Of a stretch of DNA of 64,000 bases, positions 41,045-47,453 are shown one piece after another (the stretch's first letter is position 1; every line of letters starts with the position of its first letter). This DNA is from Tepidimonas aquatica. Its GTDB lineage: Bacteria; Pseudomonadota; Gammaproteobacteria; Burkholderiales; Burkholderiaceae_C. The stretch lies in contig NZ_VJNA01000001.1 in NCBI RefSeq assembly GCF_007556585.1, forward strand, positions 62,001 through 126,000. Reading direction: 5' to 3'. The notes under the pieces were generated by a model, which searched no databases, was not told the origin of the DNA, and was given only the letters and a program-made list of their open reading frames with translations. The position numbers and the translations under genes were made by a program.

Positions 41045-41365
41045 ATGGCCCGTGTCCAACGTGTGCTGTGGATCGCCTGGCCGGCGTTCTTGATGGCCGC
41101 CTTGATCGAGATGGTCGTGTTCGCCTTTGTCGATCCGAACGAGCTGCACTGGGCTGGCGAAACGCTGGGTTGGTCGCGGCAGGCGGTTTACACGCTGGCG
41201 TTCTTTGTCTTTTGGGCGTTGACGATGGCCTCCAGCGCCCTGACCATGCTGCTGTCGATGTCGTCGTGGGAGATCAACCGCTGCCCCGTGCCGCCCGATC
41301 AGCGGCCCGCGGACTGCGTCAAACAGCCCGGCTCGGGGGCGCAGGGTTGTCAGGGCTGCGGTTGA
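41045..41365 (+). CDS. Small membrane protein of the cbb3 locus, Cys-rich tail
   Basis: A 106-residue protein with two membrane helices (about residues 8-30 and 46-70) and a polar tail that has four cysteines: NRCPVPP, DCVK and a terminal GCQGCG. GAGGAG stands before ATG 41045. It follows the FixH-like gene by 55 bases on the same strand and is the last gene of the cbb3 cluster before the foreign segment. Its helices suggest contact with the oxidase or its assembly factors; the CQGC end could bind metal. No named family is known to me. Confidence 0.75.
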   Translation: MARVQRVLWIAWPAFLMAALIEMVVFAFVDPNELHWAGETLGWSRQAVYTLAFFVFWALTMASSALTMLLSMSSWEINRCPVPPDQRPADCVKQPGSGAQGCQGCG

Positions 41366-41416
41366 ACGCGGGCGGCTGAGCAGCGCACGGCGCTCGTCGT
41401 CGCCACTCCCCCTCCT

Positions 41417-41540
41417 TTTGTTGCATCGCAATATCGAATGATGATGCGATGAACGTTTGTTATCGTATGAAGGAGATACTAGAGGAAGTTCAACCCGGGG
41501 TCAAGAGGGTCTGGTCGAAGGAGATTTGTTGCATAGCAAC
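41417..41540. promoter_or_regulatory. Orphan sigma-70 promoter flanked by two TTGCNATGCAA operators
   Basis: On the minus strand TTGACC (41504-41499) and TAGTAT (41481-41476) are exactly 17 bases apart. Two near-identical dyads flank it: TTGCATAGCAA (41529-41539) upstream and TTGCATCGCAA (41421-41431) downstream; the 15-base context TTTGTTGCATnGCAA matches at 14 of 15 positions. Beyond the second dyad is AAAGGAGG and then a GTG that opens a frame of only 17 codons. It looks like the control region of a gene whose coding part was cut off at the left edge of the foreign segment. Confidence 0.5.
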
Positions 41541-41545
41541 GAGGC

Positions 41546-41968
41546 TCACACCTTGCCGGCCGCCTGCAAGGCGGCATATTCTTCATCAGTAAAAAGCCGA
41601 GAACGCACGAGGAAGCGCACTCCTTCGCCATTTTCCAGGGAGAACATGCCGCCCCGGCCGGGCACGACGTCGATGATGAGCTGCGTGTGTTTCCAGTACT
41701 CGAACTGCGGCTTGCTGATGTAGAACGGCGCCCCGCCGATCTCGCCGAGCAGCACATCGTTGTCTCCGACGAGGAACTCCCCCTGCGGATAGCACATGGG
41801 GGAAGAGCCGTCGCAGCAGCCACCGGATTGATGAAACATCACGGGTCCGTACTTCTCCTGGAGCCTTTTGATGAGCTCGAGCGCGGCCGGCGTGGCGATC
41901 ACTTGGGGCGGTGCTTGCATCGGAGGGCGTTCCTCGGATGCAGTTTGTGTGGACATTTCTGCAGCCAT
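41546..41968 (-). CDS. DUF779 protein linked to aldehyde dehydrogenase
   Basis: A 140-residue soluble protein. After a variable first 22 residues comes the DUF779 core: MFHQSGGCCDGSSPMCYP with Cys51, Cys52 and Cys59, GEFLVGDNDVLLGEIGGAPFY, then IIDVVPGRGGMFSLENGEGVRFLVRSR. The GGCCDGSSPMC block suggests metal or redox chemistry, but no activity is known for the family. DUF779 genes regularly accompany NAD-dependent acetaldehyde-type dehydrogenases, as here: it follows the dehydrogenase by 90 bases on the same strand. GGGAGG precedes ATG 41968. Likely co-transcribed from the sigma-54 promoter at 43660. Confidence 0.9.
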   Translation of the reverse strand: MAAEMSTQTASEERPPMQAPPQVIATPAALELIKRLQEKYGPVMFHQSGGCCDGSSPMCYPQGEFLVGDNDVLLGEIGGAPFYISKPQFEYWKHTQLIIDVVPGRGGMFSLENGEGVRFLVRSRLFTDEEYAALQAAGKV

Positions 41969-41989
41969 CGTATCCTCCCAGACAAAAGC

Positions 41990-42048
41990 GCCAGGGGATG
42001 CCCCTGGCACCCAGCACAATCGAATGGAAGGGAGGGAATTTCCCTCCC
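41990..42048. other. Two tandem hairpins between aldehyde dehydrogenase and DUF779 genes
   Basis: GCCAGGGG (41990-41997) pairs with CCCCTGGC (42001-42008) over a 3-base loop, and GGGAGGGA (42030-42037) pairs with TCCCTCCC (42041-42048) over a 3-base loop. On the minus-strand transcript the second hairpin to be made is followed by GCTTTTG, which resembles a weak terminator. They could lower expression of DUF779 relative to the dehydrogenase or protect the mRNA end. Confidence 0.6.
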
Positions 42049-42058
42049 CCTATCCCTA

Positions 42059-43579
42059 TTAGAAGAAACCGAGTTTCTTCGGCGAGTAGCTCACCAGTAG
42101 GTTCTTCGTCTGCTGATAATGCTCCAGCATCATCTTGTGGTTCTCACGGCCGATGCCGGACTGCTTGTAACCGCCGAAGGCGGCGTGCGCCGGATAGAGG
42201 TGGTAGCAGTTGGTCCACACCCGACCGGCTTGGATGCCGCGGCCCATGCGATAGGCCCGGCTGCCGTCGCGCGTCCACACGCCCGCGCCAAGGCCGTAGA
42301 GCGTGTCGTTGGCGATCGAGAGCGCTTCGGCTTCGTCCTTGAAGGTGGTCACGGCCAGCACGGGGCCGAAGATCTCCTCCTGGAAGATGCGCATCTTGTT
42401 GTGCCCTTTGAAGATCGTGGGCTTGACGTAGTAGCCGCCGGCGAGTTCCCCGGGCAATTTGGCCTGTTCGCCACCGATGAGGCACTGCGCCCCCTCTTGC
42501 CTGCCGATGTCGAGGTAGGAGAGGATTTTCTCCAGCTGTTCGGAGGAAGCCTGCGCCCCGATCATCGTCGTCGGATCGAGCGGGTTGCCCTGCTTGATCG
42601 CCTTGACGCGTTCCAGGGCGCGCGACATGAATTTGTCGTAGATCGACTCCTGGATGAGGGCGCGCGAAGGACAGGTGCACACTTCGCCTTGGTTGAGGGC
42701 GAAGAGCACCATGCCTTCGATTGCCTTGTCAAAGAAGTCGTCGTCGGCCGCGGCCACGTCCTCGAAGAAGACGTTGGGCGATTTGCCGCCGAGCTCCAGC
42801 GTGACCGGGATGAGATTCTGGCTGGCATACTGCATGATGAGCCGGCCGGTGGTGGTCTCGCCGGTGAAGGCGATCTTGGCGATGCGCGGGCTGGTGGCCA
42901 GGGGCTTGCCCGCCTCGAGACCAAAGCCGTTGACGACGTTGACCACGCCCGGCGGAATGATGTCGGCGATGAGCTCCATGAGCACCATGATGCTCACGGG
43001 CGTCTGCTCGGCGGGCTTGAGCACCACGCAGTTGCCAGCCGCCAGCGCCGGGGCGAGTTTCCAGGCCGCCATCAGGATGGGGAAGTTCCAGGGAATGATC
43101 TGACCGACCACGCCCAGCGGCTCGTGGAAGTGGTAGGCGACGGTATTTTCGTCGATCTCGGAGAGCGTCCCTTCTTGGGCGCGGATGCAGCCGGCGAAGT
43201 AGCGGAAGTGATCGACGGTGAGCGGAATGTCGGCCGCAAGGGTTTCGCGGATCGGCTTGCCGTTGTCCACCGTGTCGGCGTAGGCGAGTTTTTCCAGGTT
43301 CTGCTCGAGCCGATCGGCAATCGCGAGCAACACCTGGGCGCGTTGCGCCGGCGGGGTCTTGCCCCATTTTTCCTTGGCGGCATGCGCGGCATCGAGCGCG
43401 AGCTCGATGTCTTCGGCCGTGGAGCGCGCCGCTTGGCAGAACACCTTGCCAGTGATGGGCGTGATGTTGTCGAAGTACTGCCCCTTGACGGGCGGCACCC
43501 ATTTGCCGCCGATGAAGTTGTCGTACTTGGCCTTGAACTGGACCGGGGCGGACGGATCGCCAGGGAACGGATAAGTCAT
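42059..43579 (-). CDS. NAD-dependent aldehyde dehydrogenase (acetaldehyde type)
   Basis: A 506-residue aldehyde dehydrogenase of the ExaC/AcoD/AldB group. Motifs: PWNFP with Asn165, LELGGKSPN with Glu262, and [11 protein letters not shown] with nucleophile Cys301. [25 protein letters not shown] near the C-terminus is typical of the group. AGGAG precedes ATG 43579; the longer frame upstream crosses the promoter. Expected to oxidise acetaldehyde (or similar short aldehydes) to acetate, which the acs product at 25521 could activate. It is expressed from a consensus sigma-54 promoter and diverges from the AcoR-like activator. It belongs to the segment 41.4-46.7 kb that interrupts the cbb3/FNR locus. 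Confidence 0.94.
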
Positions 43580-43659
43580 GTGCTGCTCTCCTCTTCTGAT
43601 GGTAGGAAACCGATGGAAAACTCCATGCGCCCTTGCCAAGGCGCAGGCAAGACGAGATT

Positions 43660-43674
43660 GCAAGCATCGTGCCA
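43660..43674 (-). promoter_or_regulatory. Sigma-54 (-24/-12) promoter of the aldehyde dehydrogenase gene
   Basis: On the minus strand the sequence is TGGCACG-ATGC-TTGC, an exact match to the -24/-12 consensus TGGCACG-N4-TTGC. The predicted transcription start is near 43648, leaving a leader of about 70 bases before ATG 43579. An activator gene of the sigma-54 type lies on the other side of the gap. Confidence 0.92.
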
Positions 43675-43726
43675 ATCCTGAAACGAACCTCTTTATCCAT
43701 TGATCCAAGGATTTTTTTGCTATGCT

Positions 43727-43775
43727 GTCTCAGCGAGACGTCGCAAAATGAGACATCGACCGTCTCATCGTCTCA
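43727..43775. promoter_or_regulatory. Enhancer cluster (UAS) for the AcoR-like activator
   Basis: Five half-sites lie within 49 bases: GTCTCA (43727-43732) facing GAGAC (43735-43739), TGAGAC (43749-43754) facing GTCTCA (43762-43767), and a further GTCTCA (43770-43775). The middle pair extends to the perfect dyad ATGAGAC-N7-GTCTCAT (43748-43768). The centres are about 85-110 bases upstream of the predicted sigma-54 start, the usual distance for an enhancer, and 60-110 bases before the activator gene, allowing autoregulation. Confidence 0.8.
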
Positions 43776-43833
43776 GATTCGACGAATCAACAAGAAAAAC
43801 AGTCATACAAGCATGGAAAAGGAGGGACGAAGG

Positions 43834-45753
43834 ATGACCATGCTGACTCCATCGCTGGAATCGGTCGCACTCGCCCGTCAGACGTTCATCGAACGGGGAG
43901 AGCTCACCGCGCTGCACCTGGCACCCGAGATCGTGCGCTCGTGGCAGCGCTGCCGTGCAAAAGGCCTTTCATGCGATCGACATCCTGATGTCAAGGAGAG
44001 TCTGGTCGATACGCCTCGACTCACCACCGCCCGCGAACGATTGGAAGAATGGCTGCGCTACGCCCGCCCGGTATTCGAGAGCGTCTTCTGGGATCTCGGC
44101 GCTGGACGCAGCATCCTCGTACTGGCCGACCCAGAGGGCGTCATCGTCGAGACGAGCGGCGATCCGCGCTTCCTCGAACGCGCGCAACGGGTCCACCTGG
44201 CCCGCGGTGCGATCTGGCACGAAGGCGTGCGCGGCACCAACGCCGTGGGTACGGCGATCGCCGAAGGGGCGCCGGTCGAGGTGCTGGGGCCGGAGCATTA
44301 TCTGAGCTGCAACGAATTTCTCGCCTGCACCGCCGCCCCCATCTTCGACGGCACTGGCCGCTTGGTGGCGGTGCTCGACGTCTCCTGCGATTGGCACGAC
44401 CACCATCCGCACACCCGCGCCTTGGTCAATACCGCGGTTCGCCTCATCGAGAATCACGCCATCGCCGCCCGCCACCGCGGCCTGCGCATCCATTTGCATC
44501 GCGATGCGCACGCCCTGGGCAGCTTCGTCGATGACGCCATCGTCTGCGTGGACGACGACGGTCGCGTGGTGGCAGCCAATTCCGCTGCCCGCCGCCTTTT
44601 TTCTCTACGGCACGAGGAGCTTGGTGCGGTGCCACTGGAACGGCTCTTCCGCCGCGCCGCCCCCGTGCCGCGCGGCGACGAACCGGTGCTGCTGTACGAT
44701 CCGCAGGGCAATCCCCTCTATGCGCGCTTCGAAGGACGCCGCGCGCGCGTCGTGATCCGCCGCGCCGATCCTGCACCGGCCAACGATGCCTTGGCCGAGC
44801 TCGACACCGGCGACGAGGCGCTGCGCCGGGTCATCGCCCAGGCCCGTCGGGTGCTCGACAAGGACATCCCCATCCTGCTGCGCGGCGAGAGCGGCGTGGG
44901 GAAGGAACTCTTCGCCCAAGCCCTCCATCGCAGCTCGCCGCGGCGCGACAAACCGTTCGTGGCAGTCAATTGCGCCGCGTTACCGGAAGCGCTCATCGAG
45001 GCCGAGCTCTTCGGCTATGCCCCCGGCGCCTATACCGGCGCGCGCCGCGAGGGGAGCCTCGGGCGCATCCGCGAGGCGCACGGCGGCACGCTCTTTCTCG
45101 ACGAGATCGGCGACATGCCGCTCGCGCTGCAGGGGCGACTGCTGCGGGTGCTGGAGACGAAGGAGGTCGTGCCTCTGGGCGGAAAACCGGTGCGCGTCGA
45201 GTTTGCGCTCATCGCGGCCACACACCGCGACCTGCCAGCAGAAGTCGAGGCGGGGCGATTCCGTGCCGATCTCTACTATCGGCTGGCGGGTCTGACGCTC
45301 ACCTTGCCGCCGCTGCGCGAGCGCAGCGATCTACCCGTGCTGGTGGAGCGCATCCTGCGCGCCTGCGCGCCGGACCGGGACCTGAGGCTCGCGCCCGAGG
45401 TGGCCGCCGCGTTCGCGGCCTATTCCTGGCCGGGCAACGTGCGGGAACTGGCGCAGGCACTGCGCGTGGCCGCGGCCTTGGTGGATGAGGAAGAAATGGC
45501 GATCGGCTGGGAAGCGCTGCCCGAAGGGCTCGCGGCGGCGCTGAAACGATCGCCCGGAACGACGCCGCTCACTTCCCCCGCAGGGGAAGAAGCGTTCGAA
45601 CTGGCAACCCTGTCACGCGCCGCGATCGAGCGGGCGCTCGTCGCAAGCCGCGGCAACCGCACGGCGGCGGCGAGGCGCCTGGGCATCAGCCGCGCCACGC
45701 TCTACCGCAAATTGCGCGAGATGGGCAGCCCCCCCGCGCAAGCGGCGGGTTGA
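43834..45753 (+). CDS. AcoR-family sigma-54-dependent transcriptional activator
   Basis: A 639-residue regulator with three parts. The N-terminal GAF-like sensor domain (about 60-210) has the AcoR hallmarks RGAIWHEGVRGTNAVGTA and HYLSCNEFLACTAAPIFD; a PAS-like segment covers about 232-300. The AAA+ domain has Walker A GESGVGKE at 351-358, the sigma-54 contact loop GAYTGA at 398-403 (Tyr instead of the usual Phe, common in AcoR) and Walker B LFLDE near 420-424. A Fis-type helix-turn-helix (NRTAAARRLGISRATLYRKL) ends the protein. GGAGGGA precedes ATG 43834. It likely activates the divergent aldehyde dehydrogenase-DUF779 operon in response to a small carbonyl or alcohol. The inducer is not known. 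Confidence 0.93.
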   Translation: MTMLTPSLESVALARQTFIERGELTALHLAPEIVRSWQRCRAKGLSCDRHPDVKESLVDTPRLTTARERLEEWLRYARPVFESVFWDLGAGRSILVLADPEGVIVETSGDPRFLERAQRVHLARGAIWHEGVRGTNAVGTAIAEGAPVEVLGPEHYLSCNEFLACTAAPIFDGTGRLVAVLDVSCDWHDHHPHTRALVNTAVRLIENHAIAARHRGLRIHLHRDAHALGSFVDDAIVCVDDDGRVVAANSAARRLFSLRHEELGAVPLERLFRRAAPVPRGDEPVLLYDPQGNPLYARFEGRRARVVIRRADPAPANDALAELDTGDEALRRVIAQARRVLDKDIPILLRGESGVGKELFAQALHRSSPRRDKPFVAVNCAALPEALIEAELFGYAPGAYTGARREGSLGRIREAHGGTLFLDEIGDMPLALQGRLLRVLETKEVVPLGGKPVRVEFALIAATHRDLPAEVEAGRFRADLYYRLAGLTLTLPPLRERSDLPVLVERILRACAPDRDLRLAPEVAAAFAAYSWPGNVRELAQALRVAAALVDEEEMAIGWEALPEGLAAALKRSPGTTPLTSPAGEEAFELATLSRAAIERALVASRGNRTAAARRLGISRATLYRKLREMGSPPAQAAG

Positions 45754-45757
45754 CCGT

Positions 45758-46606
45758 TCAGGCCCGCACGCCCAGGCGTTCGAGCAGGCCCTCGAGCGTG
45801 TCGTCGTCGGCGAAGGAGATCTCGAGCGTGCCGCGCCCGTCGCGGCGGCGCTTGATGAGGACTGGCGCGCCGAAGTGTTCGGAAAGCGCCTCTTCCAGCC
45901 GCCGCCAGTCGGGGTCTTTCACCGCTTCGGGTTTGGGCGCGGGCGGAGCAAGCAGCGCCTGCACGGCGCGCTCGGTCTGGCGCACCGACCAGCCCTGCAC
46001 CGCAGCGCGGCGGGCGAGTTCCACCTGTTGCGGCACGGCAAGCGCGAGCAGTGCCCGGGCGTGGCCCATTTCGAGCGCCCCCTCCATCAGCAGCTCGCGC
46101 ACCGGCTCGGCCAGTTGCAGCAGGCGAAGCAGGTTGGTGACCGCCGAGCGGCTGCGCCCGACGGCCTCGGCCGCCTGCTGGTGGGTCATGCCGAATTCGT
46201 CGATGAGCCGCTGCAGCCCTTGAGCTTCTTCGAAGGGGTTGAGGTCTTCACGCTGGAGGTTCTCGATGAGGGACATCGCCAGCGCCGCCTCGTCCGGAAT
46301 CTCGCGCACGAGACAGGGTACTTCCAGCAGACCCGCCATGCGGGCGGCACGCCAGCGCCGCTCGCCGGCGATGAGCTCGTAGCGCTCGCCCACGGGGCGC
46401 ACCAGCAGCGGCTGCATCACGCCCTGGGCGCGGATCGAGGCAGCGAGCTCTTGCAGCGCCTGAGGGTCCATGCGCGTGCGCGGCTGGTAGCGGCCGGGGT
46501 CGATGCAGTCGATGTCGACGCTGCGCAGCGCCTCTTCCACCGCCGTCGGCGCGCCCAGCAGTGCGTCCAGCCCGCGCCCCAGCCCCTTGCGCTTGCCCGC
46601 CGCCAT
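45758..46606 (-). CDS. parB: Chromosome-partitioning protein ParB
   Basis: A 282-residue ParB/Spo0J protein. It starts [14 protein letters not shown], the ParA-stimulating peptide, and has the CTP-binding patches [10 protein letters not shown] and [13 protein letters not shown] with [14 protein letters not shown], then the helix-turn-helix ([24 protein letters not shown]) and a C-terminal dimer domain. It is complete, but the parA gene that should precede it is reduced to about 30 codons (46606-46698). The parA stop and the parB ATG overlap as TGATG. No parS site (TGTTTCACGTGAAACA) is visible in the window. It converges on the activator gene with 4 bases between. It is probably an imported copy beside the host's own parAB, which should lie elsewhere. 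Confidence 0.92.
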
Positions 46607-46698
46607 CAGTGCGCCTCCGCGAGCGGGGCGGCCACGCCCAGGCGCCGCTCCAGCTCGGCGGCGAACTCGAGGTAGGCGAGGGCGCCCCGAGAGCGGGG
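46606..46698 (-). pseudogene. parA 3' remnant (about 30 codons)
   Basis: Read on the minus strand, the frame just before parB is PRSRGALAYLEFAAELERRL followed by GVAAPLAEAH and a TGA at 46608-46606. SRGAxAYLxxAxEL is the conserved C-terminal end of ParA/Soj proteins. Upstream of 46698 the similarity stops, and by 46733 the end of fnr is reached, so more than 200 codons are missing. The breakpoint therefore lies between 46699 and 46733. This is the right edge of the foreign segment. Confidence 0.78.
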
Positions 46699-46733
46699 AG
46701 GGGCGACGGCGTGCTGGGCCGGCCGCGCGGCGC

Positions 46734-47453
46734 CTACAGCGGCTCGCCCTGGTTGACGATGGCCTGCAAGGCCTGCGGCTCTAGGATGCGCACGTAGCGC
46801 TGGCGCACCTCGATGATGCCTTCGTCCTGAAAGCGCGAAAACGTGCGGCTGACCGTCTCCAGCTTCATGCCGAGGTAGCTGCCGATCTCCTCGCGCGTCA
46901 TGCGCAGCACCAGCTCGGAGCGCGAAAAGCCCCGCGCGTGCAGCCGCTGCACCAGGTTGAGCAAAAACGCCGCCAGCCGCTCCTCGGCGCGCATGCTGCC
47001 CAGCAGCAACATCACGCCTTGGTCACGCACGATCTCGCGGCTCATGATGCGGTGCACGTGGTGCTGCAGCGTGCTGAATTCGCGCGACAACGCTTCCAGC
47101 TTGTCAAACGGCAGCACGCACACTTCGGCGTCTTCCAGCGCCACCGCCGAGCACGAGTGCTTGTCCTGCACGATGCCGTCCAGCCCCAGGATTTCACCGG
47201 CCATCTGAAAGCCCGTGACCTGGTCGCGTCCGTCGGCCGTGTTGATGACGGTTTTGAAAAACCCTGAGCGCACCGCGTACAACGACGTGAACGCGTCCCC
47301 GGCGGCAAACAGCGTCGCGCCTCGGCGCACGCGGCGCCGGGTGCTGATCAGGTCATCCAGCTGCGCCATCTCATCGGTCGACAGGCCCACGGGGATGCAC
47401 AGCTCGCGCAGGTTGCAGCTGGAACAGGCGACTTTGATCGAATGCAGGTCCAT
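46734..47453 (-). CDS. fnr: FNR-type oxygen-sensing transcriptional regulator
   Basis: A 239-residue CRP/FNR protein. The N-terminal cysteines Cys10, Cys13 and Cys19 (CSSCNLRELC, spacing C-x2-C-x5-C) and Cys101 (HSCSAV) are the four ligands of the oxygen-labile [4Fe-4S] cluster. The cNMP-like beta barrel is followed by the helix-turn-helix EEIGSYLGMKLETVSRTFSR, with the E-x2-SR residues that read TTGAC/TTGAT boxes. Start at ATG 47453 (MDLHSIKVACSSC). It diverges from hemN, and the FNR box between them suggests it also controls its own region. Its targets here should include ccoI, ccoN and hemN. Its 3' end abuts the foreign segment. Confidence 0.96.
   Translation of the reverse strand: MDLHSIKVACSSCNLRELCIPVGLSTDEMAQLDDLISTRRRVRRGATLFAAGDAFTSLYAVRSGFFKTVINTADGRDQVTGFQMAGEILGLDGIVQDKHSCSAVALEDAEVCVLPFDKLEALSREFSTLQHHVHRIMSREIVRDQGVMLLLGSMRAEERLAAFLLNLVQRLHARGFSRSELVLRMTREEIGSYLGMKLETVSRTFSRFQDEGIIEVRQRYVRILEPQALQAIVNQGEPL

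Follow-up and report, generated by a model that had tools for sequence, protein, structure and literature searches.

We consider it quite likely that a 64,000-nt stretch of the Tepidimonas aquatica genome, hereafter called the window, carries an acetaldehyde-responsive switch of the EatR/AcoR type, that this switch combines a main control site at positions 43739-43755 with a sigma-54 promoter, and that it arrived as a unit on a foreign 5.3-kb piece of DNA. The type of switch is ordinary and already known, and its probable role is to induce, in the presence of acetaldehyde, an enzyme that removes aldehydes. The insertion is more unusual than the mechanism. It seems that the complete module came from another bacterium in a recent insertion, so that regulator, enhancer, promoter, and target moved together into one genome while ten other examined members of the genus are without them.

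The gene at the output end of the switch is ald (42059-43579, minus strand), whose 506-aa product passes the curated NCBIfam equivalog cut-off for the ExaC-type acetaldehyde dehydrogenase (NF050026; 968.4 bits versus a cut-off of 900). This agrees with a preliminary description of the locus, which had named an aldehyde dehydrogenase as the target. A gene for a DUF779 protein (41546-41968, minus strand; PF05610) probably belongs to the same operon. Across a gap of 254 bases lies an acoR/eatR-like gene (43834-45753, plus strand) for a sigma-54 activator of 639 aa, in which a domain search found a GAF domain, PAS-like matches, an AAA+ sigma-54 interaction domain, and a Fis-type helix-turn-helix (HTH). 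Its GAFTGA-type loop reads GAYTGA, which is also the case in one ortholog (L016). Among the matches listed for the activator (the best 25 of 30), none reached a curated NCBIfam cut-off. The domain content and the conserved divergent arrangement with ald bear out the earlier proposal that the sensor is an AcoR-type activator. Sigma-54 is encoded in the same genome, and an Rfam search of 41300-46800 returned no match.

Comparative evidence came from 118 loci, including the window. Three sources were used: 100 genomes of the family, 30 of which (window included) had matches at E 1e-100 or better; 399 genomes of the order, 11 of which (window included) matched at 1e-160; and 79 named loci taken from the best 80 of at least 590 relatives. 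Both the family and the order collections are samples of larger groups. An ald gene is located divergently upstream of the activator gene in 61 of the 118 loci, again counting the window. The other 57 were set aside because the available flank, which covered 1.5 kb or as much as 3 kb and in some cases ran into a contig end, contained no divergent ald, and four of these have ald in some other arrangement. Removal of two near-duplicate gaps (L056 and L082) gave a collection of 58 non-redundant orthologous gaps, with the window left out. The loci are related to one another, and therefore the counts of dyads and sites given below are not independent.

The putative promoter of ald (TGGCACGATGCTTGC; 43660-43674, minus strand) had been described as an exact match to TGGCACG-N4-TTGC, and this is confirmed by a score of 16/16. 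The pattern occurs once in the 64-kb window (mean of 0.14 in shuffled sequences, with at least one copy in 13 of 100) and five times in the 2.67-Mb genome, compared to two occurrences of a reversed control pattern. Similar boxes are widely conserved: 60 of the 61 divergent ald/acoR loci, window included, have one scoring at least 13/16 before ald, versus 11.6% of shuffled gaps. Scores of at least 15 were obtained for 25 loci and a score of 16 for four. At L032 and L075, the best box falls far outside the usual range of 39-114 bp before ald. Given the GG and GC at -24/-12, their proper spacing, and their conservation upstream of ald, the element is predicted with confidence to be a sigma-54-dependent promoter.

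A candidate binding site for the activator emerged from a palindrome search by expectation maximisation, conducted on the 58 orthologous gaps with the window held out. The resulting de novo motif is 17 bp wide (TGTccCAaatTGggACA) and is estimated to be carried by ~96% of the loci. Its log-likelihood is 398, whereas the same search on six shuffled sets gave values of 51-62. Widths of 19 and 21 yielded higher values (435 and 454) with an unchanged core, and widths of 15, 16, and 18 yielded lower ones. In the held-out window gap, the sequence CGTCGCAAAATGAGACA at 43739-43755 scores 16.9 bits, compared to -5.4 for the next best position, and none of 2000 shuffles reached this score. It is also the top match of the entire 64-kb window, where the runner-up scores 11.4 bits. 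Its score is below the ortholog median of 19.8 bits. Sites above 9 bits are present in 54 of the 58 orthologs and absent in L026, L075, L126, and L131. The orthologs therefore give a readable and testable code for a switch of the acetaldehyde type: a 17-bp dyad, doubled in 24 of the 54 loci with a strong site, that lies between back-to-back promoters, with an IHF-like site often at a set place. The second dyad (score above 0) is located 18-19 bp toward ald, and only one of the 54 loci has it on the opposite side.

The preliminary description had assigned the enhancer function differently, to a group of five GTCTCA/TGAGAC half-sites within 49 bases. Five GTCTC/GAGAC 5-mers do begin at 43727, 43735, 43750, 43762, and 43770, which places them within 48 bases, but only four are full 6-mers because the second copy reads CGAGAC. 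The two dyads that had been pointed out are both there. One is the 13-base dyad GTCTC-AGC-GAGAC (43727-43739), the sole GTCTCNNNGAGAC in the genome, and the other is the 21-base palindrome ATGAGACATCGACCGTCTCAT (43748-43768), the left portion of which doubles as the right arm of the 17-bp site. Two tandem GTCTCA copies (43762-43775, plus strand) occur only at this locus among those compared.

The repeats are too closely packed to be easily attributed to chance, as more than three GTCTC/GAGAC 5-mers in 49 bases never occurred when the gap was dinucleotide-shuffled 20,000 times. This clustering, and the resemblance of the copies to the ortholog half-site TGTCNC, favor the view that the five half-sites are themselves an enhancer to which the activator binds cooperatively. 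So does a peculiarity of the activator, at a position that we take to be part of its recognition helix. Among the 45 readable helices (14 of 59 were unreadable), only that of the window has Ala here and the others have Asn, Gln, Ser, or Thr, so the preference of the activator could have shifted. Some clustered 5-mer is, however, less exceptional among real gaps, because 6 of the 58 orthologous gaps also reach five copies (as do 61 of 3000 shuffles, or 2%). The half-sites were expected to recur at orthologous loci if they formed an enhancer, and they do not: the largest GTCTC cluster has no copies in 13 of the 58 gaps, one in 41, and two in four, which rules out the array as a conserved enhancer. 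Many of the single copies, read by eye, lie near a start codon as TGTCTCC or GGAGACA and thus resemble Shine-Dalgarno sequences. The spacings of the arms in the window (compact, everted, and tandem direct) are also unlike that of the 17-bp dyad, and the only site that fits the conserved model, 43739-43755, includes just one of the five repeats.

We therefore regard a five-half-site enhancer as quite unlikely. Judged by sequence conservation, the main control site is probably the 17-bp palindrome at 43739-43755 and not the set of five repeats. The enhancer assignment at this locus is hereby corrected: of the full module originally read from the sequence, the sensor, promoter, and target stand on conservation and domain content, and the enhancer was probably misplaced, on an array that is not conserved. 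The repeats may mean that binding here differs from that in the orthologs. No activator more than 54% identical to that of the window is present among the matches listed, and the repeats may have been gained locally and recently. For the compact dyad TGTCTCAGCGAGACG (43726-43740), which is the 13-base dyad plus its flanks, a more specific origin can be suggested. Its arms have the same order as those of the neighboring ald-side dyad in orthologs, but are 2 bp closer together, and it overlaps the main site and has no positive matrix score. It may be a degenerate survivor of the second dyad. The tandem GTCTCA copies at 43762-43775 have no counterpart in the orthologs, and could possibly serve as extra half-sites or in autoregulation. 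Cooperative binding and autoregulation, both suggested earlier, are likewise possible.

The distance between the main site and the promoter is shorter than the ortholog median. From the site centre to the G at -24, it measures 74 bp in the window, compared to a median of 106 bp for 54 ortholog sites, 26 of which lie at 102-107 bp. Distances and intervening sequences were studied in the 50 orthologs in which a good site and a good box are separated by 20-160 bp (the remaining 8 of the 58 were excluded). The consensus sequence for IHF is YAANNNNTTGATW. Matches to eight or nine of its nine letters were found in 12 of the 50 orthologs; the opposite strand gave such matches in 3 of 50, and shuffled sequences did so in 2.1%. 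All 12 begin 15-18 bases from the sigma-54 box. The window has a weak IHF-like site, TTATCCATTGATC (43693-43705, plus strand), that matches seven of the nine letters when counted by hand and is offset 18 from the box. This site is only suggestive because a match of seven letters occurs somewhere in 19% of shuffles, and because the scan gave a different seven-letter match for the window gap.

On the activator side, -10-like hexamers of the orthologs are concentrated 57-60 bp from the site centre, with 19 hits in 18 loci (47-49 loci were scored per offset). The corresponding hexamer in the window is CATACA (43804-43809, plus strand), which is 57 bp from the site centre and may mark a weak acoR promoter; it matches at three of six positions and fails the filter used on the orthologs. 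A general promoter scan of 43560-43860 found none. Another candidate for acoR, a sigma-70 -35/-10 pair at 43700-43726, was rejected because its TTGATC occupies the position of the IHF-like site of the orthologs, whose -10 elements lie beyond the dyad.

Because the offsets of both the IHF-like and the -10-like elements match those of the orthologs, the window seems to follow the common arrangement, minus ~31-33 bp in the interval from the IHF-like site to the main dyad. Such a length is close to three helical turns, but this is arithmetic and not evidence. A helical-phase law for the distance between dyad and promoter was also discarded: outside the 100-108 bp cluster (n=24), periods of 10.0 and 10.5 bp are unsupported (p ~0.53 and ~0.64), and a period of 11.0 bp gave p ~0.025 as one of three periods tried. 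When all 50 distances are used, p falls to 0.003, 0.010, and 0.00004 at 10.0, 10.5, and 11.0 bp, mainly due to the 100-108 bp cluster. A bolder reading is that the enhancer has been remodelled after transfer on a slice of foreign chromosome, with the loss of these 31-33 bp and the gain of extra GTCTC half-sites accompanying the change of Asn/Gln/Ser/Thr to Ala in the recognition helix, such that the activator and its enhancer would be evolving jointly and departing from the ancestral 17-bp code. We judge this to be distinctly improbable.

The position of the extra repeats relative to a possible acoR promoter is also relevant to another proposal, namely that those at 43727-43739 and 43762-43775 are operators through which AcoR or another regulator represses acoR. 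They do lie beside the conserved site or between that site and the acoR -10-like hexamer. But they are not conserved in orthologs, ParB is the only second regulator among the genes seen on the insert, and the acoR promoter is itself weakly supported here, which makes operators of this kind unlikely.

With the 17-bp palindrome as the main site, the switch could operate as follows. An aldehyde, most likely acetaldehyde if EatR is a fair guide, would be detected through the GAF region at the activator's N-terminus. The activator would bind chiefly to the dyad at 43739-43755, ~74 bp upstream of the -24 element, possibly aided by the compact dyad beside it. Bending of the DNA, perhaps by IHF near 43693-43705, would then allow it to contact sigma-54 polymerase at 43674-43660, which would start transcription of ald and the DUF779 gene. 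A weak promoter for the activator itself possibly lies ~57 bp to the other side of the site.

The proposed ligand is taken from a known relative. In a review (PMC5821096), EatR is described as working with sigma-54, as sensing acetaldehyde and not ethanolamine, and as being encoded divergently from an operon that includes eutBC and an ExaC-like gene. The EatR (PA4021)/PA4022-eat-eutBC system of Pseudomonas aeruginosa, which is the nearest to the window among those that have been studied, shares with the window a divergent sigma-54 activator, an ExaC-like aldehyde dehydrogenase, and a -24/-12 promoter (PMC5821096). The two systems differ in that the window activator is only 40% identical to an annotated EatR carried on a P. 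aeruginosa plasmid (CP109682.1), where the neighboring ald product is 71% identical to the window enzyme. The eatR gap of this plasmid also lacks the 17-bp palindrome (best score -3.0 bits) and was ruled out as a carrier of the same site. At this level of identity and with the palindrome missing, the window activator does not qualify as an EatR ortholog with the same binding site, and the acetaldehyde ligand is therefore borrowed from a relative with a different one. Other forms of control over eut and eatR loci exist as well. A short eut locus of Klebsiella pneumoniae is described as NtrC-dependent in one report (PMC11101070), which means that short eut loci need not use EatR, and repression of eatR by PvrA is described in another (PMC13415123). 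For this reason, acetaldehyde is best called a likely inducer by analogy.

A likely supplier of acetaldehyde, an ethanolamine ammonia-lyase, is encoded in the recipient genome without linkage to the switch. A permease-eutB-eutC cluster lies on contig C67 (L200:6084-9789); it would produce this compound and so could possibly feed the switch. Its location on a contig other than that of ald and acoR differs from the arrangement of PA4022-eat-eutBC in P. aeruginosa. A 16-kb stretch containing the cluster has no relative of ald, and the cluster was rejected as a second target of the activator because scores within the stretch reach no higher than 8.4 bits for the site and 13.5/16 for the box.

In Ralstonia eutropha (Alcaligenes eutrophus), the acoD gene for acetaldehyde dehydrogenase II is under the control of an AcoR-type activator. 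The window resembles this system in pairing an aldehyde dehydrogenase with such an activator, but no acetoin-cleavage genes are among those seen on the insert. A plasmid of Comamonas sp. C11 (NZ_CP101744.1; L183) carries genes for a DUF779 protein, ald, and the activator, likewise in a mobile setting, and its copy of the same 17-bp dyad scores 22.5 bits. In contrast to the window, this cassette has an extra alcohol dehydrogenase gene and is flanked by two IS1071 transposases, whereas the window insert has a parA end and parB and no transposase was seen. Among the titles listed in a literature search that covered few subscription journals, none dealt with the binding site of the ald-linked activator family.

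The segment that holds the whole module extends from 41397 to 46700 and is evident from an exact empty site. The counterparts of window positions 41396 and 46701 directly adjoin in the nearest congener (G024, 94% identity), and in the nine other congeners the two flanks are 28-165 bp apart on the same contig. The segment is thus absent from this place in all ten. An activator match extending beyond the AAA+ and HTH part is lacking in all ten (eight have such a partial match and two have none at 1e-60), and none has an ald match at 1e-180. The neighbors of the insert are oxidase genes of the fixO/ccoG type on one side and a Crp/Fnr-like gene, named by eye, on the other.

Beyond the activator gene, the insert carries a complete parB gene (45758-46606, minus strand) that looks foreign, being 52-61% identical (BLAST) to the parB of nine congeners and to the other parB of its own genome. 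It is preceded by the probable 3' end of a parA gene (46605-46700, minus strand) that is cut at the insertion boundary. This in-frame stretch matches 14 of 19 residues at the C-termini of the parA genes that immediately precede parB in L191 and L192 (E 1e-5), with weaker matches in other relatives among those listed. A search with this parB for the donor in the 399 genomes of the order did not find it, the best match besides the window being 66% identical. One genome, G373, holds both the best activator match in the order set (54%) and the third-best parB match. With a parA-like end, a parB of this divergence, and activator and parB matches that meet in a single genome, the insert is most simply viewed as a slice of a related chromosome outside the sampled ones. 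The module would thus have travelled in one piece, within 5.3 kb of foreign chromosome. Neither a target-site duplication, searched for by eye, nor a transposase was seen at the insert.

The recipient genome has two parB genes of the chromosomal type, at 45758-46606 of the window and at 103041-103715 of contig C67, and the former is foreign-looking and accompanied by only the tail of parA. The copy on contig C67 is presumably the genus's own, because its score against the window parB is identical to that of the G024 copy.

A foreign-looking parB and a missing target-site duplication are also what an assembly chimera or a contaminant might produce. In addition, the pieces covering 40-48 kb have the lowest tetranucleotide fit (0.83) to the genome's other contigs among 16 pieces. 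The G+C content is of little use in this regard, because it is 0.61 at 42-44 kb and has a similarly low value of 0.63-0.64 in native DNA at 36-42 kb. Against such an artifact, the DNA on either side of the insert is native and runs collinear with that of the nearest congener (94%), the whole window fits the sampled other contigs with a correlation of 0.97, and two joins at one place would be needed. A contaminant contig, which the second parB had raised as a possibility, was set aside given the native flanks, and we give little credence to any explanation without a true insertion. The left end of the insert (41417-41539) contains a 15-base direct repeat, TTTGTTGCATCGCAA / TTTGTTGCATAGCAA, with its copies 108 apart, and a short hairpin.
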